Part shown: positions 12,413 to 28,467 of the stretch, piece after piece
Position numbering within the stretch: position 1 is the first letter of the stretch
Layout: the number at the start of each line of letters is the position of its first letter
Source: a bacterium 1XD8-76
GTDB taxonomy: Bacteria; Bacillota; Clostridia; Lachnospirales; Lachnospiraceae
Direction of reading: 5' to 3'
Assembly: GCA_003611955.1 (NCBI GenBank)
Contig: RAZE01000020.1
Coordinates: 1 to 64,000, forward strand
Length of the DNA stretch: 64,000 nt
Position numbers and translations under genes: made by a program
Notes under the pieces: model-generated
What the model saw: the letters and a program-made list of their open reading frames with translations, nothing else
Databases searched by the model: none
Told to the model about the DNA's origin: nothing

Positions 12413-13066
12413 TCATGTAATCTGCTCTGCTTCAAACAGTACAACGAGCTCTTTCATATTGTCAAACAGATAATCTGCATCCTGTTGAGTAAAACCAAAC
12501 CGATTTTCTCTTCTGGCAGCCACCGTACTTCCTGAAAGTTTCCCAGCCTGAATGCCATAATCAGAATCTTCCACAATCAGCGTGCGAGCCGCATTTACTT
12601 TCAAAATTTTTCTGGTGTAGAAATAAATTTCCGGATGTGGTTTGCTCTTTCGAAACATATCGCCGCTTATTACTTCGGAAAAATATTCCGTTAAACCGGT
12701 TTCTTCCAAAACCTTTTTTATCACCGGCATGGAGGAAGATGAAGCAATCGCCAGAGCTATGTTTTTCTTTTTCAGATATTCCAGCATCTCCGGAACCTCC
12801 CGAAACAAAAGATCCCGATAAGCAAAACAACGCTGTTTAAAATATAATTCATAATCCTTTCTGATATCTTCCGGCGTACAGGACAATCCATATTTATCAC
12901 ATATCATATCCAGTACTCCGGAATGATGTGCACCGACTACTCTGCATGCTGTTTCATAGGATATCGGTATGTTCCGATCTGACAGATACTCCATAAAACA
13001 GTTAAGATATACTCCTTCACTGTCAATCAACGTACCGTCCAAATCAAATATAACTGCCTGATACAT
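12413..13066 (-). CDS. HAD hydrolase, beta-phosphoglucomutase-like
   Basis: A HAD-superfamily protein of 217 residues with motif I FDLDGTLID (nucleophile Asp), a helical cap, motif II SSSS (about 110), motif III Lys in RKSKPHPEIY and motif IV VEDSDYG. The DxD and cap arrangement matches beta-phosphoglucomutase or small sugar-phosphate phosphatases. The ATG overlaps the SIS gene stop (TGATG), so translation is coupled; a TTG one codon earlier is also possible. As last gene of the LevR/PTS operon it probably acts on the phosphosugar made by the deglycase, or clears toxic sugar phosphate. Confidence 0.85.
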   Translation of the reverse strand: MYQAVIFDLDGTLIDSEGVYLNCFMEYLSDRNIPISYETACRVVGAHHSGVLDMICDKYGLSCTPEDIRKDYELYFKQRCFAYRDLLFREVPEMLEYLKKKNIALAIASSSSMPVIKKVLEETGLTEYFSEVISGDMFRKSKPHPEIYFYTRKILKVNAARTLIVEDSDYGIQAGKLSGSTVAARRENRFGFTQQDADYLFDNMKELVVLFEAEQIT

Positions 13067-14082
13067 CAATACTCAAACTGCCTGTAATATCTTCTCAACT
13101 GCATATCATGTCCTGTCTTCTCGGCAAACCAAACTGACATTCTGTCGATCATTATGGTCGTTGTGATCATCGGTGCATAAATCCAGCGAAACTTATCTTC
13201 TACTCCCTCCAGCGCATACTCTTTCGGGTCGATCACTACCAATCGCTTTGTTGTTTTTTTCAGAAACTTTTCAGCTCTGTCATCCAGAACTCTCTCTTTT
13301 CCTTCTCCCTTTATCAGAATAACCGGCAGCTTTTCATCCACAAGTTCCAGTGTTCCATGGAAGAAATCTGCGGAAGATACCGCTTTTGTCTTAATCCAGA
13401 GAGCTTCCTCCAACACACACATGGACTCATTGATAACTTCCCCCCACATCTGTCCACCCCCTACAAACAACAAATACGGTTCCTCTGCAAACTGCTCTGC
13501 AATCTTCTGTGCTCTGAAATCAAATTCCTTTTTGATTCTTACAAGGTTATTTGGAATCAAAGGAAGTTCCCTATATATCTGCTCATAATCTTCTCTGGAA
13601 ATATCCCCGAGGTTCAAACATAAACGCATAATAAATACGTTCAACGGCATATAGTAAAATTCCACCAGATCTGCTTTGACCACAGGGACAGTGACTGTGC
13701 TGTTTTTGGCAATCGGACAGTCATAACTGCTTGTAAAAGCTACGATCGGATTTCCCTGTTTTTTCAGCCGGTTTCCAATCTCCACAACTTCCTTCGTATC
13801 ACCTGATTTGGACATCACAATAACAAGAGACCTTTCTGTCAATTGGGAATGACCTGTTGCCATAAGTTCCGCCGCCTGCTCCATATATACCGGTACATGA
13901 CAGATCTGCTTTAAAATTTCTTTTGCGCTGGTCATCATTGCACAAGTCCCACCTACTCCTATAAAGAATATATTCTCAAATCCTTTTTCGGTGAGCGTAT
14001 CAGCGGCCTCCTCAGCCAGTTTCATCTCTTCTATCGTCTTATCCGCAATCGCAAGATATTCTGTTTCATTAAATCTTATCAT
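13066..14082 (-). CDS. SIS-domain protein, FrlB-like sugar-amine-6-phosphate deglycase
   Basis: A protein of 338 residues with two SIS domains. The first has a glycine loop (FIGVGGTCAMM, about 40-50) and the phosphosugar serine motif VMSKSGDTKE (about 105-114). The second carries SSADFFHGTLELV, which matches the active-site E/D-F-x-H-G-x-x-E-hydrophobic pattern of FrlB, and the protein ends RRYYRQFEY, very like the RRYY...EY end of FrlB. FrlB-type enzymes split fructoselysine- or glucoselysine-6-phosphate into glucose-6-phosphate and the amino acid. The mannose-family PTS genes directly upstream would supply the 6-phosphate. The family call is strong; the substrate is inference. Confidence 0.83.
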   Translation of the reverse strand: MIRFNETEYLAIADKTIEEMKLAEEAADTLTEKGFENIFFIGVGGTCAMMTSAKEILKQICHVPVYMEQAAELMATGHSQLTERSLVIVMSKSGDTKEVVEIGNRLKKQGNPIVAFTSSYDCPIAKNSTVTVPVVKADLVEFYYMPLNVFIMRLCLNLGDISREDYEQIYRELPLIPNNLVRIKKEFDFRAQKIAEQFAEEPYLLFVGGGQMWGEVINESMCVLEEALWIKTKAVSSADFFHGTLELVDEKLPVILIKGEGKERVLDDRAEKFLKKTTKRLVVIDPKEYALEGVEDKFRWIYAPMITTTIMIDRMSVWFAEKTGHDMQLRRYYRQFEY

Positions 14083-14103
14083 TTTTATCCGTTCCTTTCT
14101 CTC

Positions 14104-14931
14104 TTATCCTAAAATCCCAAAAAATGCAGCAACAATTCCAAAAATACAGGTTCCCAGAATCAGCCAGATTACATTTACATTCTTTTTCATTAACCAGTAA
14201 TATAGCCCTGTAAAAAGTACCCCCAGCATTCCCGGCATGATACCGTTTAACGTTTCCTGAAGCGTTACCATTCCTTCTCCACTTCCGATCGGTATAATAC
14301 AGTTTGCCGAAACCATTGTCATCATCATTCCGCCTACCGTCATGATACCCACAATACCGGTCGCATAGGTCAACTTATCTAACATATTGGACTTCTGCAG
14401 TTTCTCAAGATACGCGGTTCCTACAGAATATCCCTTGATCGCCCCAAAATAGCGAATCAAAAATCTCGGAATATTAAACAGCAACAAGAAAACTACCGCT
14501 CCAAGCCAGCTTCCGGAAGCGGCCAGAGATATCCCTATTCCTGTCGCAATAACACGAAGCGTACCAAGTATAATAGAATCACCTACCCCTGACAATGGCC
14601 CCATCAAAGCCGTTTTTACCTGGCTGATCGAACTTACATCAAAATCTTCTGAATTGGCATTTGCCTCTTCCATAGATGCAACGATTCCGCCGACAAAAGG
14701 AATCAGACAATGTGTTGCATTAAAAAACTCCAGATGACGTACAAGAGCCTCTTTATATTTATCAGTCCCTTCTCCATATAATTTTTTCAGGATCGGCGCC
14801 ATCATATATTCAAATCCCAGATGCATCTGCCGTTCATAGTGCCATGCCCATCCCGTTTTAAGGGAACGACGAAACATGCGCTGAATATCACTCTTTTCCA
14901 AGTGTCTTTCTTCTGTTCTAGAAGTCATCAT
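14104..14931 (-). CDS. PTS mannose/fructose/sorbose family EIID
   Basis: The membrane subunit IID, 275 residues. Seen: the N-terminal amphipathic R-R-S-L-K-T-G-W-A/W-H-Y-E-R-Q block, the conserved ALMGPLSGVGDS motif (about 150-161) and C-terminal hydrophobic helices ending in a short cytosolic FFGILG. Together with IIC it forms the translocation channel. The ATG at 14931 is six bases after GGAGG; the preceding ATG at 14937 has no space for a ribosome site. It overlaps the IIC gene end. Confidence 0.93.
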   Translation of the reverse strand: MMTSRTEERHLEKSDIQRMFRRSLKTGWAWHYERQMHLGFEYMMAPILKKLYGEGTDKYKEALVRHLEFFNATHCLIPFVGGIVASMEEANANSEDFDVSSISQVKTALMGPLSGVGDSIILGTLRVIATGIGISLAASGSWLGAVVFLLLFNIPRFLIRYFGAIKGYSVGTAYLEKLQKSNMLDKLTYATGIVGIMTVGGMMMTMVSANCIIPIGSGEGMVTLQETLNGIMPGMLGVLFTGLYYWLMKKNVNVIWLILGTCIFGIVAAFFGILG

Positions 14932-15706
14932 CCTCATCCTCCATTCCTGTATTTACTGATACAACGCCTGCTAACCTGTTTTCTCCGAATCCGACTTTTT
15001 CCATCGCAATGACCACACCAACCATAGCAACCGCCAAAATCGGCATATTCAAATAAGCGCAAAGGATAAATCCCAGAATCATAAACGGAATCAGCCTCTT
15101 GTTAAGAATCATCTTCGCAAGAACTGCAATACCTACTGCCGGCAAAATTCCTGCCGCCACAGAAAGTCCATTCGTAATAAATGCCGGAATAGAATCCAAA
15201 AGTGCCTGCATTGTATCGCTTCCAAGATAATATCCTGCCGCCACCATGATAAAAGCTGCCAGACATCGGATAAATCCAATCAGATTCATCACAAAAAAGA
15301 CTCCCTTTTCATTTCCTTTCGCCGCGTACCGGTCTGCCAGCTGTGCAATCACCGACGCCGACATAAAAACCAGATTATTGACTACCAACGCAATCAACGA
15401 TATCGGAAGCGCCATCGCCATGGCAATACCCGCATCCTGTCCCAGACTGATTGCAAATGCAGTTCCGAGAATCCCCCCGGTTACAACATCAGGTGGAATA
15501 TAAGCACCCACTGACACAGCTCCCATGAACATCAATTCCAGAGAAGCTCCGATAATCGCCCCCTGCGCTACATCACCAAACACAATTCCCACAAGAACTC
15601 CCGTCACCAGGGGGCGGAATATATAACATGTACCAATAGCATAATCGTATATCGCAAACGCGCCGATCAACCCCAGTAAAATCGCTGTACTTAAATTTGC
15701 ATCCAT
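14918..15706 (-). CDS. PTS mannose/fructose/sorbose family EIIC
   Basis: The sugar-binding channel subunit, 262 residues with about eight to ten helices. The family motif FGDVAQGAIIGASLELMFMG (about 44-63) and the IPPDVVTGGILG segment are present. GGAGGAG precedes the ATG. It lies between IIB and IID in the usual order. The acidic C-terminus (EDEDDDF) is cytosolic. Confidence 0.94.
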   Translation of the reverse strand: MDANLSTAILLGLIGAFAIYDYAIGTCYIFRPLVTGVLVGIVFGDVAQGAIIGASLELMFMGAVSVGAYIPPDVVTGGILGTAFAISLGQDAGIAMAMALPISLIALVVNNLVFMSASVIAQLADRYAAKGNEKGVFFVMNLIGFIRCLAAFIMVAAGYYLGSDTMQALLDSIPAFITNGLSVAAGILPAVGIAVLAKMILNKRLIPFMILGFILCAYLNMPILAVAMVGVVIAMEKVGFGENRLAGVVSVNTGMEDEDDDF

Positions 15707-15718
15707 TTTTATCTCCTC

Positions 15719-16189
15719 CTATAAGATCCGGGCAACATTGATCGTACGATCCGACGGAACCAGACGAATATCCACATCCACTCCCCTGTCTATAACCTTT
15801 CTCAGCCCGTTTTTTTCTTCTTCCGTAACCCACACCGTTTTGGATAGTTGCTGTCCATTTTCAACTTTTTTCACTCCACCAATATTGATATGGCGGATCT
15901 GTTCACAGCTCTCTGCTATCTTGACTGCATCTGTCACTGACTCCACGATCACAAACAACTTATATTTATCTGTCACACCGCTGTTGATCGCCCCAATGGA
16001 ATCTTCAAGATTCTTCATCACCAGTTTCACGCCGGACGGCTTACTCAGCTTCATCGTCGTTTTTTTCAGATCGTCTTTCATCACGCCGTCATTTGCAATC
16101 AAAATACAATCCGCCCCAAGCGAAGCAGTCCACGAAAAAGCAACCTGTCCGTGTAAAAGTCTGTGATCCACTCTTAATAATTGAATCAT
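15719..16189 (-). CDS. PTS mannose/fructose/sorbose family EIIB
   Basis: The cytosolic phosphocarrier, 156 residues. DHRLLHGQV near the N-terminus holds the phosphorylated His (residue 13). It passes phosphate from IIA to the incoming sugar. AGGAGG precedes the ATG with good spacing. Confidence 0.94.
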   Translation of the reverse strand: MIQLLRVDHRLLHGQVAFSWTASLGADCILIANDGVMKDDLKKTTMKLSKPSGVKLVMKNLEDSIGAINSGVTDKYKLFVIVESVTDAVKIAESCEQIRHINIGGVKKVENGQQLSKTVWVTEEEKNGLRKVIDRGVDVDIRLVPSDRTINVARIL

Positions 16190-16204
16190 ATCAACCTCCT
16201 ACTG

Positions 16205-16621
16205 TTAAAAATCTTCCATCATCTGACCATTGCAGACCAACGCACTGCAATCTACGCATCCTTCCTGCGCAGCGGACATAACGTCCTGCAACATAGACTC
16301 TCCATTCAGGTTGTCCAGATTTTCCGTCAATGTCAGCAGCATTGCAAGGTTCATCCCGGATAACAGGCGGATTTCTCCCGACTGTGCATAACCCATAAAC
16401 TCATTATTTACACTTCCGCCAAACAAGTCCGTCACAACGATCCACTCATCCTCTGCGCTACGCTCTTTCATAAATTTTTCTACTCTTGACTCTATCTCAT
16501 TTTCGCCATTCAGATAAGCGCACATCGTCTTGATCCGTTCCTGCCTGCCCATGATCATTTCTATTGAACAAAGCATACTGTCCGCAAGAGTTCCGTGAGA
16601 GGCAAGCAATATTTTTCTCAT
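16205..16621 (-). CDS. PTS mannose/fructose/sorbose family EIIA
   Basis: The cytosolic IIA, 138 residues. The N-terminal ILLASHG motif carries the phospho-acceptor His9, and TDLFGGS (about 78-84) is the second family motif. The start overlaps the stop of the LevR-like regulator by four bases (ATGA), so regulator and PTS are one transcript. Confidence 0.93.
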   Translation of the reverse strand: MRKILLASHGTLADSMLCSIEMIMGRQERIKTMCAYLNGENEIESRVEKFMKERSAEDEWIVVTDLFGGSVNNEFMGYAQSGEIRLLSGMNLAMLLTLTENLDNLNGESMLQDVMSAAQEGCVDCSALVCNGQMMEDF

Positions 16622-19347
16622 CCCTGATTCTGCTCCTTCCTTTTTTTATTTCGTTTTATCCGTATATCATTTTTGATATAGTCAAACACATAGGCTATTT
16701 CACTGACCGGCAAAACAATCCCATAATGACTACAGATTGCATCAAAACTTTCCCTCATGATCTTTATAAAACCGGCCTGCTCCTTCTCAAAATCCGTATC
16801 TCCATATGTCTGGATTTCTGCTTTCGTCACAAGCCGTTCCGTCAGGCAACATATATGAATATATAATCCACTCAACGTCCTTCCGCTGAATCTGCAATTC
16901 ATCCGGTTCTGCATCATCTCCAGTGCTTCCTCTACCATATTTAATAACACATCCGCATTTAATATAGTGAGATACTGCACTACATTTTCCAAAGAAAACC
17001 TCTTCAAAAAATTTGCCTTAAATTTTTCTATCTCCTTTTCATCCATGTACTTCAGAAAAACATCTTCCAAAATCCCCATAGATTTCCGCGATATAATGTC
17101 CTCCAAACCGATATACGGCAATCCGTCCATACCGGAATCGAAACTTCCGATCACGCAGAGCACATTATATTTTTCAAATATTTCATCACTCCTTCCGTTT
17201 TTCGCCAGTCTGTAATAATCAAAAGCCAGCGTCTGAATAGGAAACATCCTCGTAAGACTGCCGTCAAACAGTTTTTTCATTCGTTCTGCCGCCTGAATGC
17301 CTGATTCACTGATAAAAATAATCAATGGTTCTTTCTCCCGGTTTTTAATGATCCGGTATGTCGGTTTCATTTCTTCCGCAACTTCCCTCATTACAACTTC
17401 CATTTCTCCACCGGTTATCATAGCTGTTCCGACCGCAAGCGCCATAGCTGTAGATACATTTGTCAGAATTCCAAGTTTGATGCCGGACACTTCTCCCATA
17501 TAAGCATCTATCTCCGCAAGACTTCCCGTATCGATCAATAAAAATACGTTTTTAATACCTGTCATTTTTCGCAGTCTTTGCTGCAGTGCCAGAACCACCT
17601 GCTCTACCTGGCTTTCAAAAGGCATGTCAATCGCTTCAAATATTTTTTCATTTAAAATCGAATTGACGGAATCGGCTATACTGCTGGCAGTGGAGTAACC
17701 GTGGCATATGATCAATCCGGCATTTTCATTGATGGCAATCTTTTTGCTGTACTGATTTATTTCAAGCATCAGTAAAATTCTGACAGCGAGACTGATATCA
17801 AGATCCAGATTCTCTTTCAGCGTATCCGCAAAATCATCTGCCACAGCAGCCGCTTTTGTAAAACGCTCCCTGATTCCTTTATAAATCACAAGAAGCTCCT
17901 GTCCGTACTGTTTCTCCCACTGCATAATCTGAAAACTGTCCTGTATCTGTTGACAGATCAATTTTGCAATGATCAGTCCCCAATTGACAGAAAGTGTAAT
18001 ATTATATTTTTTCTCAATATAATCAATAACACTTTCCAATACCAGCCGTATTGCTTCCGATCTGACATTTATGCTTCCTCTTTGAAAGACCAGAAAGTTA
18101 TAATATGCTTTTACCTGCGCATACATCTGATTCATATATCTGTTCCAGTTATGATTCTCCTCATATTCCGCTTTCAACAGCACCATATTCTTCAAAAGGT
18201 TCAGATATTGATCCATATTCTCCCCTCGTTTGTATCTGGAGATCGGGATCATACTCTGTTCCTCCCCTGAACCGCCCTCGACCGGCAGCGAAGTGATCAT
18301 TTCCTCCGGTAAATGATATAAAAACACAAGTATTTCTTCGGCATCTGCCCTCTGCATCAGCGCATTGGCACAGCATATGGAAATATCATTTTTCATTTCG
18401 CGAATATTTCCCTTAAAACGGTTTTCCGAAAATGCCTGTAAAACTCTTTGACTGATTTTTATTTCTTTTTTAAAATTTAATGATTCTTTCTGAAAGAAAG
18501 AGATGATCAGCTCCTCTCGTTCTTCCTGTGAACGCTCTTCCAGAGCCGGTATCCTGACTATGATTGGAATATATCGCAGTAATACGCTCAACATAAACTG
18601 ATCCGGTGCCACTGTGGATGTAAAAGCCAACCTTACCCTTTTTTCTCGCGCCTTTTCTATGAGAAGCGGCAGTACTTCCTGCACAGAGGACATAAGACAG
18701 TCTATATTCTCGATCATCATCAGACTGTCCTGTGCTTCTGCCAGCAAGCTTTTCCCGAAACCATCCCCGCTTTCCGCCTCCATCAGCTTTTCCCAAAATA
18801 CAGACGGTTTTTTTTGATAATCATTACAGTCTATACGGACTGCTTTTTTACCTCTTTCGATGATCTCCAGATTTACTGCGTACTCCATCATCAAATCAAG
18901 AAGAAAATGTTTTCCGGTTCCTGCTTCTCCATACAGCAAAATCGGGATTCCAAAATCCGGATAGCCAACTGCCGCACGGCATTGATCAATGCAGTAGCCA
19001 AGGCTTCCTGCATGTCCGACCGCTTTTACAAAATCTCTTTCTTTTTGACAGGTGTAATTCAATGCCATCAGAAGTTCGTCCAGATTCTGATATGTATCTT
19101 CTGTCAGTCTGCATCCATAATTTTTTTCAACAGACGCTCTGTGAAGAAAACCGACCGGCCTGGAATTGATTTTTATCAATTTGTTTTCTTTCACCATCTC
19201 ATTCAGATACTGACTTGCCAGATTTCGGCTTATAAACAACGCATCACTGATACTGCCCGCCGTTTGGAGTATTCTGTTCTGCTTTGAAAATTGTTTACTT
19301 TTCTCTGCAAGGTAGCTTAAAATCTGTTCCTTCGTACTGACTGTCAT
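16618..19347 (-). CDS. LevR-like PRD transcriptional regulator with degenerate AAA+ core
   Basis: A regulator of 909 residues. Order: N-terminal HTH (about 1-60), AAA+ domain (110-340), PRD1 (about 425-530), mannose-type EIIA-like domain with His549 (ICHGYS), and PRD2 (about 790-890) with a conserved YIHICCLTERL His. Known LevR/GfrR proteins activate sigma-54 promoters through a GAFTGA loop. Here Walker A is intact (GEAGTGK, 140-146) but the GAFTGA loop is absent: the expected place (about 183-203) reads MEAESGDGFGKS. Walker B is MMIENID rather than hhhhDE. The PRD1 His position reads VNWG. It heads the operon 19347-12413. It probably senses PTS phosphorylation and regulates without sigma-54. 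Confidence 0.88.
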   Translation of the reverse strand: MTVSTKEQILSYLAEKSKQFSKQNRILQTAGSISDALFISRNLASQYLNEMVKENKLIKINSRPVGFLHRASVEKNYGCRLTEDTYQNLDELLMALNYTCQKERDFVKAVGHAGSLGYCIDQCRAAVGYPDFGIPILLYGEAGTGKHFLLDLMMEYAVNLEIIERGKKAVRIDCNDYQKKPSVFWEKLMEAESGDGFGKSLLAEAQDSLMMIENIDCLMSSVQEVLPLLIEKAREKRVRLAFTSTVAPDQFMLSVLLRYIPIIVRIPALEERSQEEREELIISFFQKESLNFKKEIKISQRVLQAFSENRFKGNIREMKNDISICCANALMQRADAEEILVFLYHLPEEMITSLPVEGGSGEEQSMIPISRYKRGENMDQYLNLLKNMVLLKAEYEENHNWNRYMNQMYAQVKAYYNFLVFQRGSINVRSEAIRLVLESVIDYIEKKYNITLSVNWGLIIAKLICQQIQDSFQIMQWEKQYGQELLVIYKGIRERFTKAAAVADDFADTLKENLDLDISLAVRILLMLEINQYSKKIAINENAGLIICHGYSTASSIADSVNSILNEKIFEAIDMPFESQVEQVVLALQQRLRKMTGIKNVFLLIDTGSLAEIDAYMGEVSGIKLGILTNVSTAMALAVGTAMITGGEMEVVMREVAEEMKPTYRIIKNREKEPLIIFISESGIQAAERMKKLFDGSLTRMFPIQTLAFDYYRLAKNGRSDEIFEKYNVLCVIGSFDSGMDGLPYIGLEDIISRKSMGILEDVFLKYMDEKEIEKFKANFLKRFSLENVVQYLTILNADVLLNMVEEALEMMQNRMNCRFSGRTLSGLYIHICCLTERLVTKAEIQTYGDTDFEKEQAGFIKIMRESFDAICSHYGIVLPVSEIAYVFDYIKNDIRIKRNKKRKEQNQG

Positions 19348-19426: not shown

Positions 19427-19531
19427 CCCGTTTGACAGGCTTTCGACATTACAGTATCACTCCCGCCACACCGCGATATATCGTGCTCTTTTCTCGACAT
19501 CTTCCTCGACACTTTGCTGTCATATGCATAT

Positions 19532-19565
19532 AAAAAAAGCACTCTGTCCTCACAGAATGCTTTTT
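19532..19565. terminator. Bidirectional intrinsic terminator after the DMT transporter
   Basis: On the minus strand AGCATTCTGT, loop GAGG, ACAGAGTGCT, then seven T; on the plus strand five T follow. It differs from the terminator at 10854-10883 by a single loop base. It ends the long operon that starts at 27147. Confidence 0.9.
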
Positions 19566-19570
19566 CCCGT

Positions 19571-20413
19571 TCATCCCTGCCGCTCCTCCTTCGCCTCGAA
19601 CCATATCTCGTAGACGATCGCCCCGACCATCAGCACCGCCGCCGGCCAGGTGCCCGCCCTCTCCCGGAACAGGAGAAACGCCCAGACGGGTGCCATGATC
19701 ACCTCCGACATGGCGATCAGGTTGGCATTTAACGCCGTCGTCATCCGACACCCGATGGTGTACGTAACACCCGCCAACCCGATGCAGAGCACGCCGGACA
19801 GAAGCACCAGCCCCGTCTGTTTCCAGTCATACTCCTGTCTCACAAACAGCCCCGTGTAGCTGAGGCAGACCACGATACAGATGATATGGGACAGCACATG
19901 GGCCACCACCGCGTCGTTCTCCGGCTTGGCGCACAGGTAAAACTCCCCCGCAAAGCAGATGCCCGACAACACCGCCAACGCGTTCCCGAACATATTCCGC
20001 ATCGTCAGCTCCCCGGCAAAAAACAGAAGCAGTGCCAGAAAACACACGCCCACCGCCAAAAGCTGCTGCCTCTTTAACTTTCTCTTCTGGAAGATCCGAT
20101 AGTACAATACCACAAATATGGGCGACGAGTACTGCAGCACGATGGTGTTCGTCACCGTGGTGTGCTTGTTCGCCACCATAAAGCAGATATGCATCACCGC
20201 GATCACAACCCCGGTCCAGACTGCTAACGGCGTCACGCGCCAGACATGCTTCCGGTTATAGATCAGCAACACCAAAGCCGCCATAATCGAGGAGATCCCC
20301 GTCACCGTCAGGGCGTTGTAAGAGACCGCCTTCGTGATAATTCCCACAAAACTCCACAAAAAAGCAGTCCCCAGAATCAGGAGGTTGCCTTTATACTGTA
20401 CATTCTTTTTCAT
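19571..20413 (-). CDS. EamA/DMT family transporter
   Basis: A membrane protein of 280 residues with about ten helices in two five-helix EamA repeats, beginning GTAFLWSFVGIITK, and the second-repeat motif NLIAMSEVIMAPVWAFLLFRE near the C-terminus. Such proteins export or import small metabolites such as amino acids. It lies 44 bases downstream of the HAD gene with only a T-poor hairpin between, so it probably belongs to the PTS/deglycase operon. Exporting the amino acid released by a deglycase is an attractive but unproven role. Confidence 0.87.
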   Translation of the reverse strand: MKKNVQYKGNLLILGTAFLWSFVGIITKAVSYNALTVTGISSIMAALVLLIYNRKHVWRVTPLAVWTGVVIAVMHICFMVANKHTTVTNTIVLQYSSPIFVVLYYRIFQKRKLKRQQLLAVGVCFLALLLFFAGELTMRNMFGNALAVLSGICFAGEFYLCAKPENDAVVAHVLSHIICIVVCLSYTGLFVRQEYDWKQTGLVLLSGVLCIGLAGVTYTIGCRMTTALNANLIAMSEVIMAPVWAFLLFRERAGTWPAAVLMVGAIVYEIWFEAKEERQG

Positions 20414-20447: not shown

Positions 20448-20469
20448 GCGCAGCTTTTATACGCTGCGC
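20448..20469 (-). other. Intercistronic hairpin between HAD and DMT genes
   Basis: GCGCAGC (20463-20469 read on minus) pairs perfectly with GCTGCGC over an eight-base loop spanning the HAD stop codon. The following sequence is CTGTTTG, too T-poor for a strong terminator; partial attenuation is possible. Confidence 0.45.
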
Positions 20470-21143: not shown

Positions 21144-21583
21144 ATCCCGTCCTCGTCTGTCATTTCTTCTGCGGCAGGAATATCCAGCACAAATTTCCCC
21201 ATGCTCTCCCTGGCATTTTCTATCAATTCTTCCACCAGTTTATCCGGATCTTCCGGATCCACACCGGTTATATTGCACATGCAGGCTTCCATCAGGAGCG
21301 CACTGTTGATCCCCCCGATCACCCTGACTTTCGGATTTGACACGCTGAGTGTCGCCGCACAGTTATAGGGTGTACCGCCGATCAGATCCGTCAGGATCAA
21401 TATCACCGAACAGGACGCATCCGCCTCGATCTGCGCCTTCAGCTTTTCACTCAGCTCCTCCGGCGTCATCCCTTCCATAAAATCCATCGCCACAAGTTCG
21501 GTATCCGCACCTGCCAGCATCTTTACATTCTTTTCCATTCCGGCCGCAAAACCGCCGTGTCCCGTAACAATAATTCCTACCAT
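21140..21583 (-). CDS. PTS mannose/fructose/sorbose family EIIA (second set)
   Basis: A IIA subunit of 147 residues with IIVTGHGGFA carrying the phospho-acceptor His9 and LTDLIGGTPYN as second motif. The ATG at 21583 follows AAGGAG by eight bases; the open frame extends upstream into deoC but without a ribosome site. It is encoded apart from its IIB, IIC and IID partners (25063-27147) by five genes of the same operon, unlike the compact first set. Confidence 0.92.
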   Translation of the reverse strand: MVGIIVTGHGGFAAGMEKNVKMLAGADTELVAMDFMEGMTPEELSEKLKAQIEADASCSVILILTDLIGGTPYNCAATLSVSNPKVRVIGGINSALLMEACMCNITGVDPEDPDKLVEELIENARESMGKFVLDIPAAEEMTDEDGI

Positions 21584-21587
21584 AATC

Positions 21588-22292
21588 TCACTCCTTATCC
21601 TCAAACTTCCGCGCGTTCTCAAACTGTCTCAAAATCTCTATGCCAAAGCTGGTTCCGATCCGCTCGGCTCCCGCGTCGATGACGGCGCTGCACATCTCCC
21701 AGTCGCGGATCCCTCCGGCGGCTTTCACTTTCACGCTCTCACCCACCACGCTCTTCATGAGTGCCACATCCTCTATCGCGGCTCCGCCGGTGCCGAAACC
21801 GGTACTCGTCTTGATAAAATCCGGCTTCACCTCCCGCGCAATCTCCGCCGCCAGGCGTATCTCATCCTTTGTCAGATAACAGTTTTCAAAGATCACTTTG
21901 ATCAGCACATCTCTGCTCTTACAAAGATCCGTAATACGCCGCATCTCCTCCTCGATATACGCCGTATTACCCATTTTCAGTTCCCCGATATTCAGTACAT
22001 AGTCTATCTCATCCGCCCCGTCCTCGATGGCTTTTTTTGTCTCGAACAGTTTGGTCTCCAGCGCCGTCTGACCAAGCGGAAAAGAGATGGCGGCTCCCAC
22101 ATGCACGCCCGTGCCGGCCAGCAGTTTCTTACAGTAGGCGACCGGAGAAGAGTTGATCGCCACCATGGCAAAACGATGCTTTGCCGCTTCCTGACAGAGC
22201 CTGTCAAAATCCGTGTGCACCGCATAGGCCTTGAGAAATGTATGATCTATCATCCCCGCCAGCTGCTCTCTCGTAATCGTCTTACTGTTCAT
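21588..22292 (-). CDS. deoC: Deoxyribose-phosphate aldolase family protein
   Basis: A class I aldolase of 234 residues, a normal length for DeoC. The Schiff-base Lys is seen in PDFIKTSTGFG and the second catalytic Lys in VKVKAAGGIRD. Known DeoC cleaves 2-deoxyribose-5-phosphate to acetaldehyde and glyceraldehyde-3-phosphate. No other deoxynucleoside genes are here; it lies inside the PTS/deglycase operon, so it may act on a different phosphosugar. Family assignment is firm, in vivo substrate is not. Confidence 0.85.
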   Translation of the reverse strand: MNSKTITREQLAGMIDHTFLKAYAVHTDFDRLCQEAAKHRFAMVAINSSPVAYCKKLLAGTGVHVGAAISFPLGQTALETKLFETKKAIEDGADEIDYVLNIGELKMGNTAYIEEEMRRITDLCKSRDVLIKVIFENCYLTKDEIRLAAEIAREVKPDFIKTSTGFGTGGAAIEDVALMKSVVGESVKVKAAGGIRDWEMCSAVIDAGAERIGTSFGIEILRQFENARKFEDKE

Positions 22293-22316: not shown

Positions 22317-23069
22317 CTATTTATTTACCACGCCAAACTCAAATTTCTGTACCATTCCGTCCAGATACTCTCTGCTGTAATCCACCGGACGGTCGTTCTG
22401 ATCGACGGCCACATTGGTAACATATAAGACCGGAGAGCCGCGCTTCACACCGAAAAGCTCAGCGAACTCTTTCTCCGCGATCTGTGCCCGGATCGTACGC
22501 TTTGCCCGCGTCACCTTCACGTGATAATCTCTCTCAAATACGTCGTACAGGGAATTTTCTGCCAGATCATACTTGTCGATCCCCGGAAAAATGGATTCCG
22601 GTATATAATTGTCCACCAGCACAAACGGCTTTTCTTCCGCATAGCGCATACGCCTGATGTGCAGGCATCGCTCATCCAGACCAATATTCAATTTGGACGC
22701 CAGCGTGAGATCTCCCGACACCCACTCCTGACGGACCATCTTTGTATAATGAGGTTTCCCCAGTATGGCCATCTCTTTCGCAAAGCTCAGTTGCGCATCT
22801 ATAAACCGCCCGCGGTTATCCGAGAGACGCACAAAAGTGCCTTTCCCCCGCATCCGCTCCACGTAACCCTCCGCGATCAGTTCACTGTACGCCTGTCTGG
22901 CCACCGGTCTGGATATCCCCAGCTGGTCGCACAGTTCCTCCTCCGTCGGCAGTTTGGTTCCCTCCGGAATCTTTCCGTTGGTAATCGCCTCCAGCAGCGC
23001 CCTGCGCAGCTGCTCATATAACGGCATGGGGCTTGATTTATCCAGATACAATCCGCCTAATCCTGTCAT
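22317..23069 (-). CDS. GntR family regulator with UTRA ligand domain
   Basis: A regulator of 250 residues: N-terminal winged helix (about 12-78, LPTEEELCDQLGISRPVARQ) and a C-terminal UTRA domain (about 95-245) that binds phosphosugar-type effectors in FrlR, NagR and similar repressors. It lies within the second PTS operon between the kinase and deoC. The palindromes at 27196-27228 over the two divergent promoters are its likely operators. Confidence 0.92.
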   Translation of the reverse strand: MTGLGGLYLDKSSPMPLYEQLRRALLEAITNGKIPEGTKLPTEEELCDQLGISRPVARQAYSELIAEGYVERMRGKGTFVRLSDNRGRFIDAQLSFAKEMAILGKPHYTKMVRQEWVSGDLTLASKLNIGLDERCLHIRRMRYAEEKPFVLVDNYIPESIFPGIDKYDLAENSLYDVFERDYHVKVTRAKRTIRAQIAEKEFAELFGVKRGSPVLYVTNVAVDQNDRPVDYSREYLDGMVQKFEFGVVNK

Positions 23070-23094: not shown

Positions 23095-23958
23095 TTAATC
23101 CACAGGAGATACCTTCGCCTTCACACCGAATCCGCCCTGCTGCATACAGTTTTTCGCCGACGCTTCCTGTCCTGCCTGCAGTGCCGCTGATAGAGCTTCC
23201 TCCGGCATCAGCCTGTTCTTCTGCCAGCCCAACTGCATCAACGTATTCAGAAAAGCCGCCAGGAAAGAATCTCCTGCTCCCATTGTGTCACTCGGAATCA
23301 CTTTTTGAATACCTTTTTTCATAATCTGTCCCCCCGCCGAGAGAAGCTGCCCCTCCGCGCCGATCGTCGCCAGCACATGCACCACTCCCCGCTCGTGCAG
23401 AGGCCGGCAGAACTCTTTAAACTCCGCCTCCTCCATCGGTCTGCAGGAAAACATCGCCAGATCAATGTGCCCGCACACCTGATCGTAGTACTCCTTTGTG
23501 CGGTACTTCTCCTTTTCGCCGAAATCATAGACAAACACAGACGGCAACTCCTGCACCTTCCGCATCTGCTCCGGCATCTTGGCATTGCAGCTGCAGGCGA
23601 TCAGATCCGCCTCCGCGAGATGCCTCAGATCTTCCTCCTCCAGCTGTATCGGTCCCGTCCAGTCAGGCCCCGTCACAACGCTCACAAAGGACCTTTCCCC
23701 GTCCGTCACCTCATAATTGCACACCTTCGTCGTCTTTCCGGCCAGAACCGGACAATGGTCATGCGCCACATGAAAATCATCTAACGCTTTCACGATCACT
23801 TCGGCGTAAGCGTCGGCGCCGAGATTTCCGAAATACTCCGACTCCGCCCCCTGCCTGGCCGCGTGTACCGCCACGTTCACCGCATTCCCGCCCGGAAAAC
23901 ATTCCCCGGTGTTCTGATAATAGTCAATAACATTGTCCCCTAACGCGATCACTTTCAT
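23095..23958 (-). CDS. PfkB family sugar kinase, FrlD-like
   Basis: A ribokinase-fold kinase of 287 residues. FPGGNAVNVAVHAARQG (about 22-38) is the PfkB signature 1 region, and SDTMGAGDSFLAAF is signature 2 with the catalytic Asp. Its closest named relative by pattern is FrlD, fructoselysine 6-kinase. It directly follows an FrlB-like gene, as frlB-frlD do, yet uptake here is by PTS, which already phosphorylates. It may therefore phosphorylate a second position or a related non-PTS substrate. The ATG follows the SIS stop immediately. Confidence 0.87.
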   Translation of the reverse strand: MKVIALGDNVIDYYQNTGECFPGGNAVNVAVHAARQGAESEYFGNLGADAYAEVIVKALDDFHVAHDHCPVLAGKTTKVCNYEVTDGERSFVSVVTGPDWTGPIQLEEEDLRHLAEADLIACSCNAKMPEQMRKVQELPSVFVYDFGEKEKYRTKEYYDQVCGHIDLAMFSCRPMEEAEFKEFCRPLHERGVVHVLATIGAEGQLLSAGGQIMKKGIQKVIPSDTMGAGDSFLAAFLNTLMQLGWQKNRLMPEEALSAALQAGQEASAKNCMQQGGFGVKAKVSPVD

Positions 23959-23959
23959 A

Positions 23960-24964
23960 TCAATAATTCTCTTTCCGATAATAACGGCGGATATCCAGGG
24001 AATGCCCTGTTATCTGCTCTATATTTTTGCTGATACGCTGCAGCACCGCCGCCATGACAACAGGGCTTAACCACCTGCGGAACTTTTGGCTGATACCCGG
24101 AAGTTCATACTCCGCACAGTCAAAACAGTTCAGTTTCTTCGTGTGCTGCACCGCGAAGTCTCTCACCCGCTCATCCAGCTCTCTGGTAGGTCCCTCTGTC
24201 AAAAGCAGGGTCATGCACACATCGTCCTCCAACAGCTCCAACGTCCCGTGGAAAAACTCCGGACTGGAAACGCTCTTTGTGCGGATCCACTGGCTCTCCT
24301 CCAGCACACACATACTGTAGCTGTAAGCCGTCGGCCAGAGATCGCCGCTGCCCACCCAGATATTGTAGGGCTCCTTGCAGTAATCCTCCGCATACTTCCT
24401 GCACTTCTCATCCGCCTGCTTCCGCACCTGTGCGAGGGCGTAGGCGAGCCCTTTCAGTTCTTCTGCAAATTCCGGATAGTCTTCAAAATCGCCGTTTCGA
24501 TATAAGATCCTGCCGATCAGGAGATACAGAACCAGCTCCTGAGGCCGTCCCTCCCCGTACACCACCGTGTCGTCGCTGATACTCTCCAGAACGGAATCCG
24601 GTTTTCCCACGATCGAAACGAGCCGCACGCCCTGTTCTTTCAGCCACTTCGCCGCCTTCACCGTCTCCGCCGTATCGCCGGATTTGGAGGTCAGAAAGGC
24701 AACTGTCTTCTCCGTGATCCGGTTGCAGCCGCCGAGCATCAGATCCGCGGAGATCACATTTTCCACGGGCAGCTTCGACTCGTGCCGGATATAAAAGGGA
24801 AACGGATCCAACATCGCCTGGCTTCCGCCGCTGCTCGTGAACAACAGCAGGTCAAACCCTTTATCCACGATGGAATCCGCGATCGCTTCAATCTTTTCTC
24901 TCTGTCTGTAAATGATATCGCCGTTCGCGACGATCTGTTCTTCATCAAAATTAACCATTTTCAT
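23960..24964 (-). CDS. SIS-domain protein, FrlB-like deglycase (second set)
   Basis: A two-SIS-domain protein of 334 residues: FTSSGGSQAM glycine/serine loop, LTSKSGDTAETV phosphosugar motif, SSPEFFHGTLELL active-site block and C-terminal DIRRYYRKENY. It is clearly paralogous to the protein at 13066 (same blocks in the same order). The ATG at 24964 is eight bases after AGGAGG; an ATG seven codons upstream lacks a site. Probably cleaves a 6-phosphorylated sugar-amine imported by the adjacent PTS. Confidence 0.83.
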   Translation of the reverse strand: MKMVNFDEEQIVANGDIIYRQREKIEAIADSIVDKGFDLLLFTSSGGSQAMLDPFPFYIRHESKLPVENVISADLMLGGCNRITEKTVAFLTSKSGDTAETVKAAKWLKEQGVRLVSIVGKPDSVLESISDDTVVYGEGRPQELVLYLLIGRILYRNGDFEDYPEFAEELKGLAYALAQVRKQADEKCRKYAEDYCKEPYNIWVGSGDLWPTAYSYSMCVLEESQWIRTKSVSSPEFFHGTLELLEDDVCMTLLLTEGPTRELDERVRDFAVQHTKKLNCFDCAEYELPGISQKFRRWLSPVVMAAVLQRISKNIEQITGHSLDIRRYYRKENY

Positions 24965-25062: not shown

Positions 25063-25848
25063 TTACATAATACCAAAGAAGGAAAGCAGAATAGACACTG
25101 CGATAACCAATAAGATCAGTTTGATCGTATTGACATTCTTTTTCTTAAACAGCCAGTAGAGTAAAAATACAAATCCGAGAGGCAGTATGTTCGGCATAAT
25201 GGAATCAAAGATTCCCTGAATGGAAACGCCGCCGACTACGACCAGGCTCTCCGGGAACGCAAAGCTTACGTAACTCGGGATCAGGCCGCCCACTACCATA
25301 ACGCCCAGGATGCCTGCTGCCTTTGTCAGTGCCGCAGCATTGTCGCCGATAAACTTGATGGAGCTCACACCGGCTTTGTAACCCAGATCCACGAACCAGA
25401 TACGGCTCAGTATCGCCGTAACAGCCCAGAACAGGATGTAGAGGATCGGGCCGAGCACACTGTTCTGGCTCGCCAGGGAACAGCAGATCGATGCGATGAT
25501 CGGCATCGCCGTATACCACCAGATCGCGTCGCCCAGTCCCGCCAGAGGTCCGAACAGACCGGTTTTTAAACCGTGGATCAGGCTTCTCTCCTGTCCTCTC
25601 TCCTCCATGGAGACGATCAGGCCCTGTAAAATAGCCGCCATATGGGGCTCCGTGTTGATAAAGTCGAGGTTGTTGGCCATCGCCTCGGCCATCTCTTTGT
25701 TGTCATCGCCGTGGATCTTACGGAAACATTTTGTCATGCCCCAGCAGAAACCCACAGCCTGCATACGCTCAAAACTGAAACAGCACTGCTCCGCCATGGA
25801 GCGCCACGCCATATTGTGCAGATCTTTTTTTGTAATTTTAGATTCCAT
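25063..25848 (-). CDS. PTS mannose/fructose/sorbose family EIID (second set)
   Basis: A IID subunit of 261 residues with the GLFGPLAGLGDAIWW motif and C-terminal helices. GGAG lies nine bases before the ATG at 25848, which overlaps the IIC gene by 11 bases. Cys-rich N-terminal segment (EQCCFSFERM) differs from the first-set IID, indicating separate lineages rather than a recent duplication. Confidence 0.93.
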   Translation of the reverse strand: MESKITKKDLHNMAWRSMAEQCCFSFERMQAVGFCWGMTKCFRKIHGDDNKEMAEAMANNLDFINTEPHMAAILQGLIVSMEERGQERSLIHGLKTGLFGPLAGLGDAIWWYTAMPIIASICCSLASQNSVLGPILYILFWAVTAILSRIWFVDLGYKAGVSSIKFIGDNAAALTKAAGILGVMVVGGLIPSYVSFAFPESLVVVGGVSIQGIFDSIMPNILPLGFVFLLYWLFKKKNVNTIKLILLVIAVSILLSFFGIM

Positions 25849-26632
25849 CCTCAAACTCTCCTTCCCCTGAAGTCGTCTTTGCTTCCTCCAGCTTCGCTAT
25901 CTGTATATCACGATTGAATCCCACAAATGCGATACATCCCGCGATAATTGCCACCGGCAGGATATTCGCGCAGTTTGCGATGACCATGATCACAAAGCCT
26001 GCCAACAGAAACGCAACGTTCTCTTTCTTCAGCATAACAACCAAAAGCAGTGCAAGACCTACTGCAGGCATCAGGCCGCCGGCAACTTCAAAGCCGTGTA
26101 CAAGCCACTCCGGGAATGCGTTCACGAAAGCCGCGATGCCGCTCTGGAATGCATATACGGACAGAAATGCCGCCACTGCGAAAAGGATTCCGTAGAGGAA
26201 CCAGCCTGTGAACAGTTTCCGTTCCAGAACCTTCTCATTTCCTTCTGCAACGCCTTTATCGATAGAGGGAAGGAAACCTGCGTAGAATGTGTTGGTCGCC
26301 GTACCGATCCACTGACCGATCAGCGCGAACGGAACCGCAAGACCCAGCGCCGTATTCACGTCACATCCGGTGGTGTGAGCCAGAACTGTCGTCATAAGAC
26401 CCGCAAACAGCGGATCGGGGGGGACCGTACCGCCTACGGTCAGCAGTCCCAGATAGGAAAGCTCCGCCACCGCGCCCGCTTTCAAACCGAGGGACACATC
26501 CCCTAAGATAATACCGGTAAAGAACGCCACAACGAGCGGTCTAAACCACATAAATGTTTCCATGTGCTTATCCATTGCACAGATAAACACGACTAATGCA
26601 ATCAATAACCCCTGAATAAGTGTAATTTGCAT
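25838..26632 (-). CDS. PTS mannose/fructose/sorbose family EIIC (second set)
   Basis: A IIC subunit of 264 residues with about eight to ten helices. The family motif GDVSLGLKAGAVAELSYLG (about 44-62) is followed by GGTVPPDPLFAG. It forms the membrane channel with IID and is followed directly by it. Confidence 0.93.
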   Translation of the reverse strand: MQITLIQGLLIALVVFICAMDKHMETFMWFRPLVVAFFTGIILGDVSLGLKAGAVAELSYLGLLTVGGTVPPDPLFAGLMTTVLAHTTGCDVNTALGLAVPFALIGQWIGTATNTFYAGFLPSIDKGVAEGNEKVLERKLFTGWFLYGILFAVAAFLSVYAFQSGIAAFVNAFPEWLVHGFEVAGGLMPAVGLALLLVVMLKKENVAFLLAGFVIMVIANCANILPVAIIAGCIAFVGFNRDIQIAKLEEAKTTSGEGEFEDGI

Positions 26633-26670
26633 GATTCATTCTCCTTTTCCTTTGATCCGGACTTCTCTGT

Positions 26671-27147
26671 TTATTTATCAAAGTCCAGTTTTCTGTCTCC
26701 CGGTGCGATCTGAATATAGACTTCCGCGCCCTTTGCCCGGATCGCCCTCAAATCCTCTTTGTCCTGATCGTCCATATAGACATGCGCATCTCCCGTTACT
26801 ACTTTTCCCGGTCCCACATGCATATTTCCGATGCAGAGCTTGTCGATCGGCACCCCGCCCTCCACAAGCTTCCTGGCACTCTGCGGATCGCGCACGATCA
26901 GGAAAATATGCTGACTGGCAGACGCTTTATGTATCACTGCGATGGTCTTTTCCAGCGTAAAGAAACGGATGCCGCAGCCTGCGCTCTTTGCGGTAGCGCT
27001 CATCAGGCTCTGCTGCACCGGGTCAGCAGCCGCCATGTCATCCGCCACAACGATCAGATTGCAGCCGCTTAAGCTGCTGGTCCAGGCCACACCCACCTGT
27101 CCGTGTACCAGTCTGTTGTCAATTCGAGTCAATAAAATGTCCGGCAT
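26671..27147 (-). CDS. PTS mannose/fructose/sorbose family EIIB (second set)
   Basis: A IIB subunit of 158 residues with RIDNRLVHGQV holding the phosphorylated His15. The ATG at 27147 follows GGGAGAG; the longer open frame has no ribosome site and would run into the promoter. First gene of the long minus operon ending at 19571. Confidence 0.93.
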   Translation of the reverse strand: MPDILLTRIDNRLVHGQVGVAWTSSLSGCNLIVVADDMAAADPVQQSLMSATAKSAGCGIRFFTLEKTIAVIHKASASQHIFLIVRDPQSARKLVEGGVPIDKLCIGNMHVGPGKVVTGDAHVYMDDQDKEDLRAIRAKGAEVYIQIAPGDRKLDFDK

Positions 27148-27195
27148 GATTTTTCTCTCCCTTCTTTTATTATTGATACAAAATATTCCAGGTCC

Positions 27196-27228
27196 GCAAA
27201 ATATTTTGCAATATTGTAATGACAATAT
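27196..27228. promoter_or_regulatory. Twin operator palindromes between divergent operons
   Basis: GCAAAATATTTTGC (27196-27209) is a perfect 14-base palindrome. Immediately next, ATATTGT (27211-27217), four bases, ACAATAT (27222-27228) is a perfect inverted repeat that overlaps the -10 of the minus promoter and the -35 of the plus promoter. Probable sites for the GntR/UTRA regulator at 22317. Confidence 0.7.
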
Positions 27229-27247
27229 ATCAATTCTGTGGTACTAT
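27219..27247 (+). promoter_or_regulatory. Promoter of the divergent SIS gene
   Basis: ATGACA (27219-27224), 17-base spacer, TACTAT (27242-27247) preceded by TGG, an extended -10. It is interleaved with the opposite-strand promoter. Confidence 0.6.
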
Positions 27248-27252
27248 GTCAA
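27224..27252 (-). promoter_or_regulatory. Promoter of the second PTS operon
   Basis: On the minus strand TTGACA (27247-27252), 17-base spacer, TATATT (27224-27229). Confidence 0.72.
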
Positions 27253-27339
27253 TAGAGCAATCGACATTAATTTTATTTTGTACGATTTACACAATTTTCG
27301 CTCTCAAAATTTATCAATTTTTACAAGGAGGATTATACA

Positions 27340-28467
27340 ATGTCACAAAAAGAAACAAAAACCATGATGGATTACATCGCATCCTGCCCGGAATTTATCC
27401 GTGCCAATGTAAGGGATAGCAAGGCTCTTACCGCCCCTCTTGTGGAGGAGTATGTAAACGGAGGGTACAAAAATATCTGGATCGTAGCCTGTGGTTCCTC
27501 TTCCAACGGAAGTCTCTGCGCCCGTCAGTTCATACGCCGCCACCTGCAGTGCGAAGTCAAAATCGTGACTCCTTTCGCTTTCGTAGTCAGCGAGCATGAT
27601 TTCAGCGAGACGGATATGGTCATCGTGGTCAGCCAGAGCGGTTACAGCTTAAATGCTCTGGACGCCGTGAAAGTTATCAAAGAAAAAGGCCGCCGCGCTG
27701 TCGGACTGACCGGCGATCTGGACAGTGATCTGGCGAAAGTCTGCGACGTCGCCGCAAATTACGGCGTCGGCAGAGAAACGGTCGCCTATGTCACCAGAGG
27801 TGTGACGACGCTTGCGCTGTTCTTTATGCTCTTTGCCACGGACGCGGCGCAAAAAGCCGGAATCAAGACCGCGGAGGAAGCGGACGCCGTGAGAAAACAG
27901 CTTCTCGCCGCTGCGGATATCAATGAAAAGGTGCAGGCTTCCTGGCCCGCTTTCCTGGAAAAACACTATCAAAATCTTTCCGGCATGACAAAGGTCTATG
28001 TCTGCGGCGTGGGCGCCAATATGGGCACCGCCTGCGAGGGAGCGTTAAAATTCGGCGAAACCATCAGCATCCCCTCCTGCGCCTACGAAATCGAGGAGTA
28101 TATCCACGGCCCCAACATTCAGATGACCCCCACCTACAACGTTTTCCTGATCGACGGCGGCGAGGGCACGAAGCGCATCCATCAGATCTACGAGGGAACG
28201 CAGATCGTCACCTCTGGAGTCTATCTGATCACAAACTGCGCCGATTATCAGGACGAGCCGAACACGTTCTATGTGGAGTGCGACCTGCCCGAGGAGATCA
28301 CGCCGTTATGTTATCTCCCCGTCTTCCAGATGACAGCCTTCCGGATCACGGAGGATCTGTCCCGCTGGCTCAAACATCCGCTGCAGCGCAAAATGGAAAA
28401 ATCCGTCTCCTCCAAGAGCGAAAATTACGAGAACAGCCCGTTCAGCGAGGATACGCCGGGAAGATAA
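27340..28467 (+). CDS. SIS-domain phosphosugar isomerase/deglycase
   Basis: A protein of 375 residues with two SIS domains of the GlmS-isomerase/FrlB type. Seen: VACGSSSNGSLCARQF (about 49-64), VVSQSGYSLNAL (about 95-106), and the active-site block YEIEEYIHGPN (about 248-258). Unlike the other two SIS proteins it resembles the GlmS C-terminal layout more closely. AAGGAGG lies eight bases before the ATG. It shares a promoter region and palindromes with the opposite PTS operon, so it is presumably co-regulated. In Salmonella gfr, two deglycases handle two sugar-amine phosphates; a similar split of labour is plausible. Confidence 0.82.
   Translation: MSQKETKTMMDYIASCPEFIRANVRDSKALTAPLVEEYVNGGYKNIWIVACGSSSNGSLCARQFIRRHLQCEVKIVTPFAFVVSEHDFSETDMVIVVSQSGYSLNALDAVKVIKEKGRRAVGLTGDLDSDLAKVCDVAANYGVGRETVAYVTRGVTTLALFFMLFATDAAQKAGIKTAEEADAVRKQLLAAADINEKVQASWPAFLEKHYQNLSGMTKVYVCGVGANMGTACEGALKFGETISIPSCAYEIEEYIHGPNIQMTPTYNVFLIDGGEGTKRIHQIYEGTQIVTSGVYLITNCADYQDEPNTFYVECDLPEEITPLCYLPVFQMTAFRITEDLSRWLKHPLQRKMEKSVSSKSENYENSPFSEDTPGR

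Follow-up and report, generated by a model that had tools for sequence, protein, structure and literature searches.

Two adjacent mannose-family phosphotransferase operons of a Lachnospiraceae bacterium that probably use sugar-amine glycation products

Results

A 64,000-nucleotide stretch of the Lachnospiraceae bacterium 1XD8-76 genome (GenBank assembly GCA_003611955.1, contig RAZE01000020.1, positions 1 to 64,000; hereafter the window) carries two neighboring gene clusters, modules A and B, in which a mannose-family phosphotransferase system (PTS) stands beside SIS-family proteins that are putative deglycases of glycated amino acids. Among the 78 open reading frames (ORFs) listed for positions 8000-33000, 18 were gene-like across 12413-28467. 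They include two sets of EIIA, EIIB, EIIC, and EIID (PF03610, PF03830, PF03609, and PF03613), two FrlB-like SIS proteins (SIS_A and SIS_B), a third SIS protein (SIS_C), two HAD phosphatases, a PfkB kinase, a DeoC-family aldolase, an EamA exporter, and LevR-like PRD and GntR/UTRA regulators. Module A (12413-19347, minus strand) reads LevR, EIIA, EIIB, EIIC, EIID, SIS_A, HAD1. Module B (20457-28467) reads on the minus strand EIIB, EIIC, EIID, SIS_B, kinase, GntR/UTRA, DeoC, EIIA, HAD2, followed by EamA; SIS_C lies on the plus strand, divergent from the rest. An original prediction made from the sequence alone had listed these genes, and the ORF list and domain searches bore out its list and coordinates. 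Expected motifs were found, including the EIIA HG and EIIB HGQV histidines, GAGD in the kinase, DxDG in the HAD proteins, the DeoC lysine motifs, and IHGP in SIS_C. SIS_A and SIS_B both contain FFHGTLEL, and their catalytic columns (E225, E226, F240, F241, H242, and G243) are invariant in a seven-sequence alignment.

Phylogeny, which had been suggested as a check, grouped none of the SIS proteins with an unrelated isomerase family. SIS_A (13066..14082, minus; PDB 2a3n 326 bits, 8glr 323 bits) falls in a 12-row set with Salmonella GfrF and proteins of gfr operons, with support of 97 in one tree and 100/98 in a second; it is a predicted GfrF-type fructosamine-6-phosphate deglycase. SIS_B (23960..24964, minus, start codon set by reading; PDB 2a3n 236 bits) sits in a 43-row clade (support 99), a sister clade inside the GfrF/FrlB family. 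SIS_C (27340..28467, plus; GlmS-isomerase-like, 29.7% identical to Enterococcus faecium GfrE; PDB 2aml 128 bits) is a predicted aldosamine-6-phosphate deglycase in a 19-row clade (97) that is separate from, and next to, the 12-row GfrE clade (95). These placements support Amadori-type deglycase chemistry for all three predicted enzymes. The earlier expectation of two related Amadori-type or amino-sugar substrates gains backing for its chemistry, but not for a single joint system, as described below.

A genome scan for module B returned at least 588 stretches and 374 confirmed relatives, of which the best 80 loci were kept for all 80-locus counts. Some are near-copies, and L068, L073, and L075 share contigs with L040, L042, and L041, respectively. 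GfrE was called at 33% identity or above, and kinases were counted as adjacent or within 8 kb. The module B order recurs in Bacillota, including Lachnospiraceae, Solobacterium, and Gemmiger formicilis, two loci of which (L072 and L098) hold the complete module. Because this order is kept in relatives, the locus is more than a chance assembly. The module B PTS is of the galactosamine type. EIIB (26671..27147, minus, start codon set by reading) scores 231 bits against PRK09756, over the cut-off of 180, whereas E. faecium GfrB stays below it at 99 bits. EIIC (25838..26632, minus; PRK09757, 236 bits) and EIID (25063..25854, minus; PRK09855, 302 bits) are below their cut-offs of 300 and 400; together they are 41% identical to Escherichia coli AgaC and AgaD and group with them at 100. 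SIS_C accompanies 12 of 14 galactosamine-type PTS loci, and the other two (L066 and L071) are cut at EIIB by the contig end. EIIA (21140..21583, minus, start codon set by reading) matches PF03610 at 2.2e-21.

The kinase gene (23095..23958, minus) encodes a predicted PfkB-family, FrlD-like 6-kinase. Its best model is fructoselysine 6-kinase (PRK09813, 138 bits, below the cut-off of 247), followed by fructokinase at 72 bits; no PDB entry matched at 1e-10. None of the eight PTS loci with GfrE has a kinase within 8 kb, while every one of the 28 loci that carry three PTS subunits but lack GfrE has one adjacent. Kinases also occur in 35 of 36 loci without a three-subunit mannose-family PTS (17 adjacent and 18 within 8 kb, the exception being L143) and in all eight loci cut before an importer becomes visible (six adjacent). 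The 28 kinase-PTS loci comprise 14 of the galactosamine type and 14 that best match the Gfr type, with L087-L089 forming a third, distant type. The ABC-fed (ATP-binding cassette) loci L103-L106, L108, and L115-L118 have their kinase 1-6 kb away, and it mostly belongs to another kinase clade. Parsimony on the tree gave six transporter changes for SIS_B-like rows and a single change in kinase presence among 36 PTS rows; these trait counts used older labels, with a tighter distance rule, than the 80-locus counts. We rejected the mutual exclusion of kinase and GfrE as independent evidence, since one tree change carries no statistical weight alone. The kinase tree contains many genes twice, and no support values were drawn from it. 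All 53 aligned kinases retain GAGD. The ratio of nonsynonymous to synonymous substitution rates (Ka/Ks) against L065, L066, L067, and L072 is 0.10, 0.11, 0.21, and 0.14 for the kinase and 0.05, 0.03, 0.05, and 0.08 for SIS_B, with synonymous sites near saturation beyond L065. Judged by its sequence, the kinase is a conserved and apparently working enzyme in a setting where theory makes it unneeded, an anomaly that the original prediction overlooked, along with SIS_C as a GfrE-like partner and the LevR-like regulator's lack of the usual sigma-54 route.

Upstream of EIIB, a sigma-70-type promoter-like site (27224..27252, minus; TTGACA-17-TATATT, 11/12 match) and its -10 box are overlapped by a perfect palindrome, ATATTGT-N4-ACAATAT (27211..27228, 0 mismatches). 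Allowing two mismatches, the window holds three such sites against 0.11 expected. A site within that limit stands at EIIB, approximately 2.2-2.4 kb before SIS_B, in each of the 11 PTS-bearing close relatives of module B (L065-L069, L071-L075, and L098); mononucleotide shuffles of the close-relative loci gave one in 17 of 550 six-kilobase trials. In Parablautia loci L079 and L080, whose ABC and MFS transporter genes were identified through similarity to those of L078, one palindrome (one mismatch) overlaps the -10 region before SIS_B and a second (two mismatches) faces divergent genes. L078 has a palindrome-like site with three mismatches, and L076 and L077 have none within two. L070, the only Faecalibacterium locus in the set, begins just before SIS_B, so that no PTS is visible, with a palindrome directly upstream of that gene. 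These patterns support a single regulon in which the importer has been exchanged, with the palindrome as the predicted operator of the GntR/UTRA protein (22317..23069, minus; PF00392 and PF07702). The latter is 32% identical to E. coli FrlR, which has been proposed to respond to fructoselysine-6-phosphate (PMC12632257). The separate control expected for the two modules is supported, with a predicted GntR operator at module B and a LevR-like regulator on module A.

Module A has closer ties to gfr. Its EIIA (16205..16621; PF03610), EIIB (15719..16189; PF03830, HGQV), EIIC (14918..15706; PF03609), and EIID (14104..14937; PF03613), all on the minus strand, are 36%, 55%, 43%, and 43% identical to E. 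faecium GfrA to GfrD. The GfrCD-like pair is 43% identical to GfrCD versus 30% to AgaCD and 32% to ManYZ, and it lies inside a 26-row Gfr set (98). None of the module A genes is a GfrE partner, and close relatives of SIS_A are rare, found at 1e-70 in three of 295 genomes of the order, the window genome included. By these similarities, module A is a divergent gfr-type operon. It ends with HAD1 (12413..13069, minus), a HAD-superfamily, beta-PGM-like phosphatase (PF13419, 1.6e-32) that is 36.6% identical to HAD2.

In the LevR-like regulator of module A (16618..19347, minus), domain searches and alignment showed no GAFTGA loop and a degenerate Walker B motif. Among five LevR homologues from 200 family genomes searched, the loop is kept only in L159 and is missing from the other four. 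No sigma-54 was detected in the window genome (98% complete) with PF04552 or PF04963, whereas four of 14 control genomes were positive. Genomes G033, G133, and G138, which contain LevR homologues, do have sigma-54; G119 shows a sigma-54 fragment within a frame of 71 residues, and none was found in G065. Loss of GAFTGA therefore does not track loss of sigma-54. A sigma-54 promoter for module A was considered and rejected: the window contains 21 matches against 27 expected by chance, with none at 19348-19570, upstream of LevR. Activation of module A may proceed with sigma-70. A LevR derivative without GAFTGA in a genome without detectable sigma-54 is a second testable oddity of this locus.

The two modules do not form one gene set, contrary to the original prediction. 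In L065 (95-97% nucleotide identity, in three pieces), module B and EamA (19571..20413, minus; PF00892) run directly into the genes that lie below 10.9 kb in the window, and L066 (69-87% over its pieces) has the same junction. These two loci, which have the highest SIS_B identity among the best 80, thus lack an 8.6-kb block (10.9-19.5 kb) that comprises module A and an AAA_14/DUF4143 ATPase gene (10872..12221, minus). The ATPase gene was outside the earlier gene list and does not belong to the pathway. With two relatives lacking module A at this site and module B widespread on its own, we rejected a single paired system. In the SIS tree L066 branches outside the pair formed by the window and L065, so a gain of the block in the window lineage is the simplest reading. 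G+C content is 42.1% in module A, 46.7% in the ATPase gene, 53.2% in module B, and 50-53% in the flanks. At either end of the block stands a copy of a hairpin-forming repeat (distal, 10853..10888; proximal, 19531..19566; 34/36 identical), and L065 has one copy at the junction. The terminator scan listed neither repeat, their terminator-like appearance and hairpin having been read by eye. The other sampled genome of the window's genus, G184, gave no SIS_B or LevR relative at the limits used. Module A looks like an independently inserted block, and caution about the direction of insertion comes from patchy synonymous divergence against L065. Over 19571-28467, that divergence is at most 0.054 for SIS_C, HAD2, and EIIA, and 0.37-0.54 for the kinase, GntR, and SIS_B, which suggests recombination inside module B.

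Discussion

Our favored interpretation, held with moderate confidence, is that the window contains two operons that evolved separately and both serve the use of sugar-amine glycation products. Use of Amadori and Heyns compounds is the best reading of these sequences, and the locus probably feeds on sugar-coated amino acids from cooked food. Module B would be the resident operon, with its galactosamine-type PTS importing the compound. SIS_B would convert a ketosamine 6-phosphate (an Amadori product such as a fructose-amino acid) to glucose-6-phosphate and an amine, and SIS_C would convert an aldosamine 6-phosphate (a Heyns product such as a glucose-amino acid) to fructose-6-phosphate and an amine. 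The FrlD-like kinase would make the 6-phosphate of unphosphorylated intracellular ketosamines derived from glycated peptides, another importer, or a glycosylated form, and module B would then be a two-entry hub. The GntR/UTRA repressor would sit on the palindrome over the -10 box until released by a phosphorylated compound. HAD2 may drain surplus sugar phosphate. In a Salmonella fraB mutant, build-up of 6-phosphofructose-aspartate stops growth (PMC4941530), and this arrest makes a safety-valve role for a HAD phosphatase plausible. Module A would be a second gfr-type PTS with a GfrF deglycase and a HAD protein, acquired as a block, whose LevR-like regulator acts without sigma-54. Substrates, products, the roles of the kinase and HAD proteins, operator function, effector, and direction of insertion are all conjectural elements of this scheme.

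Several observations weigh against our interpretation. Substrates for all of the proteins were assigned by sequence. SIS_A and the module A PTS are both on long branches, and their specificity may therefore have shifted. The module B PTS resembles galactosamine transporters rather than Gfr, and SIS_B, SIS_C, and the kinase score far below the curated NCBIfam cut-offs for FrlB and FrlD (the best model for SIS_B, FrlB PRK11382, gives 80 bits against a cut-off of 430). No palindrome within two mismatches was found in three more remote loci of the galactosamine type (L095, L099, and L102). The split between kinase and GfrE is a single event on the tree, with one independent pair, and six of the 28 kinase-PTS loci (L087-L089 and L109-L111) have SIS genes that best match GfrE at 24-28%, under the 33% rule. 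Finally, if the PTS phosphorylated the Amadori compound at C6, the kinase should be redundant, as in gfr. Work by Wiame in 2005 is said to have described gfr operons without FrlD.

Possible reasons for keeping the kinase are that Amadori compounds reach the cytoplasm unphosphorylated, that the PTS phosphorylates elsewhere, or that the PTS serves SIS_C. A bolder version, which we put forward tentatively and rather doubt, is that module B represents a widespread class of operon in which a PTS is coupled to an obligate Amadori kinase. The PTS would not make the 6-phosphate used by the deglycase but would place its phosphate at a different position or on a different sugar, either a glycosylated Amadori compound or the aldosamine that SIS_C handles. 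The deglycase-kinase core would have changed importers repeatedly, in part of the family under one operator.

Alternatively, module B could be an amino-sugar operon. Galactosamine or another hexosamine would then enter through the AgaBCD-like PTS and lose its amino group, as the 6-phosphate, to SIS_C; the remaining steps would fall to the kinase and the DeoC-family aldolase, and SIS_B would act on a side substrate. The combination of PTS, SIS, PfkB, and aldolase genes recalls the aga scheme, and this view draws further on the EIIB score, the grouping with AgaCD, and the regular presence of SIS_C in galactosamine-type loci. Yet we find it unlikely. The NCBIfam matches of SIS_B and SIS_C at E 0.001 include no AgaS-named model, and the library presumably contains one. 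Likewise, neither an AgaS deaminase nor a tagatose-bisphosphate aldolase model appears among the module B hits, the aldolase being TIGR00126 deoC; E. coli AgaS itself, with a branch length of 6, could not be placed in the SIS tree. Fructoselysine 6-kinase is the top model for the kinase, ahead of fructokinase, and Parablautia loci of the ABC type have both the palindrome and the SIS_B-kinase-GntR core in common with module B. DeoC, for its part, is missing from L066 and lies within 8 kb in only five of the 80 loci (L065, L072, L096, L098, and L099), on which grounds we also rejected it as a core enzyme.

A second alternative to our two-operon interpretation is that the PTS of module B phosphorylates a sugar other than that handled by SIS_B, the substrate being a glycosylated Amadori compound of the lactulosyl- or maltulosyl-lysine type. 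A phospho-glycosidase would then release an Amadori compound without phosphate, for which the kinase is required. This would account for the kinase in all 28 PTS loci without GfrE, and it fits Erysipelotrichaceae loci in which GH1 genes precede SIS_B and kinase. L086 reads beta-glucoside-type PTS, GH1, SIS_B, kinase, and L081 reads GH1, SIS_C, SIS_B, kinase; in L085, the GH1 protein preceding SIS_B and kinase exceeds the 6-phospho-beta-glucosidase cut-off (878 vs 639 bits). The L086 locus also has a MupG-like gene. We nevertheless hold the chance of such a pathway in module B to be small. Module B contains no glycosidase, none was noticed in the close orthologue L067 (others were not scanned), and the GH1 protein of L086 is below the cut-offs. 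The window genome does have four GH1 genes and one GH4 gene, a presence that does not discriminate between readings. Moreover, mannose-family PTSs are known mostly for monosaccharides, and such a bias speaks against a glycosylated substrate. Least probable, and in our judgment quite improbable, is that the kinase is an idle leftover of an ancestral ABC-fed frl operon after a PTS took over feeding the deglycase: it evolves faster than SIS_B (Ka/Ks 0.10-0.21 vs 0.03-0.08) and its identity falls below 70% in 11 of the 13 loci where that of SIS_B exceeds 80%, but its invariant GAGD, its Ka/Ks well under 1, and its adjacency in every PTS locus without GfrE, against its absence from gfr operons (0/8), point to retained function.

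The gfrABCDEF system is reportedly the subject of studies by Miller in 2015 and Wiame in 2005. As described for Salmonella and E. faecium (PMC12675984, PMC4987338), it shares with module A a LevR-like regulator, EIIABCD, and a GfrF-type deglycase; module A differs in having no GfrE, in adding a HAD gene, and in its regulator without GAFTGA. Module B, like gfrABCDEF, places a GfrF-family deglycase and a sister of GfrE beside a mannose-family PTS, but this PTS is of the galactosamine type, a kinase and a GntR regulator are present, and the GfrE-like gene is divergent. In PMC12675984, the text and the legend of Figure 1 assign the substrates of GfrE and GfrF oppositely. LevR-type activators called GfrR control gfrABCDEF in Clostridiales, as surveyed in genomes with sigma-54 (PMC6615313). 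Module A has a regulator of LevR-like type as well, but no sigma-54 was found here and GAFTGA is gone.

Module B resembles the frl operons of E. coli (L039) and Bacillus subtilis (PMC12632257) in its predicted FrlB-like deglycase, its predicted FrlD-like kinase, and its GntR/UTRA regulator. However, frl relies on a permease or ABC importer and module B on a mannose-family PTS, and E. coli FrlB and FrlD are only 25% and 28% identical to SIS_B and the module B kinase. Parablautia L079 and L080 look like ABC-fed versions of the module B core. With the galactosamine PTS of E. coli aga (L152), the likeness is confined to the EIIC and EIID similarity given above; neither AgaS nor tagatose-bisphosphate aldolase was recognised in the window locus.

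Faecalibacterium prausnitzii has a published seven-gene operon, read as a fructoselysine PTS and reported from a Gemmiger species as well. It is described as carrying homologues of gfrABCDF, a further gene with no homology to gfr, and a regulator that differs (PMC12136445). Seven module B genes would match it (EIIA to EIID, deglycase, kinase, and GntR), and by description, the only basis for comparison, it may be module B. In contrast to module B, its regulatory genes are placed at the operon start, and the section describing it identifies neither the extra gene nor a divergent SIS protein or an operator (PMC12136445). The original prediction had called its gene set unfamiliar. Searches of open-licence literature gave no description of a kinase next to this PTS, of the divergent SIS_C, or of the operator. 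If module B is the published operon, its reading as a plain fructoselysine PTS would be incomplete, given the kinase, the divergent second deglycase, and the predicted operator. A kinase beside a PTS also makes the question of substrate directly testable. Fructoselysine and glucoselysine come from heated food; their use helps Salmonella in early gut colonisation (PMC12675984), and the related operon of F. prausnitzii is found more often in healthy people than among patients with inflammatory bowel disease (PMC12136445).

EamA, a DMT-family exporter, follows HAD2 also in L065 (97%) and L066 (74%). The DeoC-family aldolase (21588..22292, minus; TIGR00126, 237 bits, cut-off 117) appears accessory. 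The genome has a second deoC at another place, 37% identical to it, a further reason not to count it as core. It may still have some role, as DeoC also adjoins a SIS_A-like gene in L048. DeoC-family genes stand near FrlB/GfrF-like deglycases in several lineages (L048, L072, L096, L098, L099, and the window). HAD2 (20457..21143, minus; PF13419) is conserved in close module B loci, and 27 of the 80 loci have a HAD gene no more than 6.5 kb away. At L040:7940-9427, HAD2 is fused in frame to a Cof-type HAD domain, as identified with Pfam in L040, and similar frames occur in L041 and L067 (482-500 amino acids). Finally, the E. faecium plasmids L060, L061, and L063 carry gfr operons, and L060 has a gfr-like operon in which a SIS_C relative replaces GfrE.

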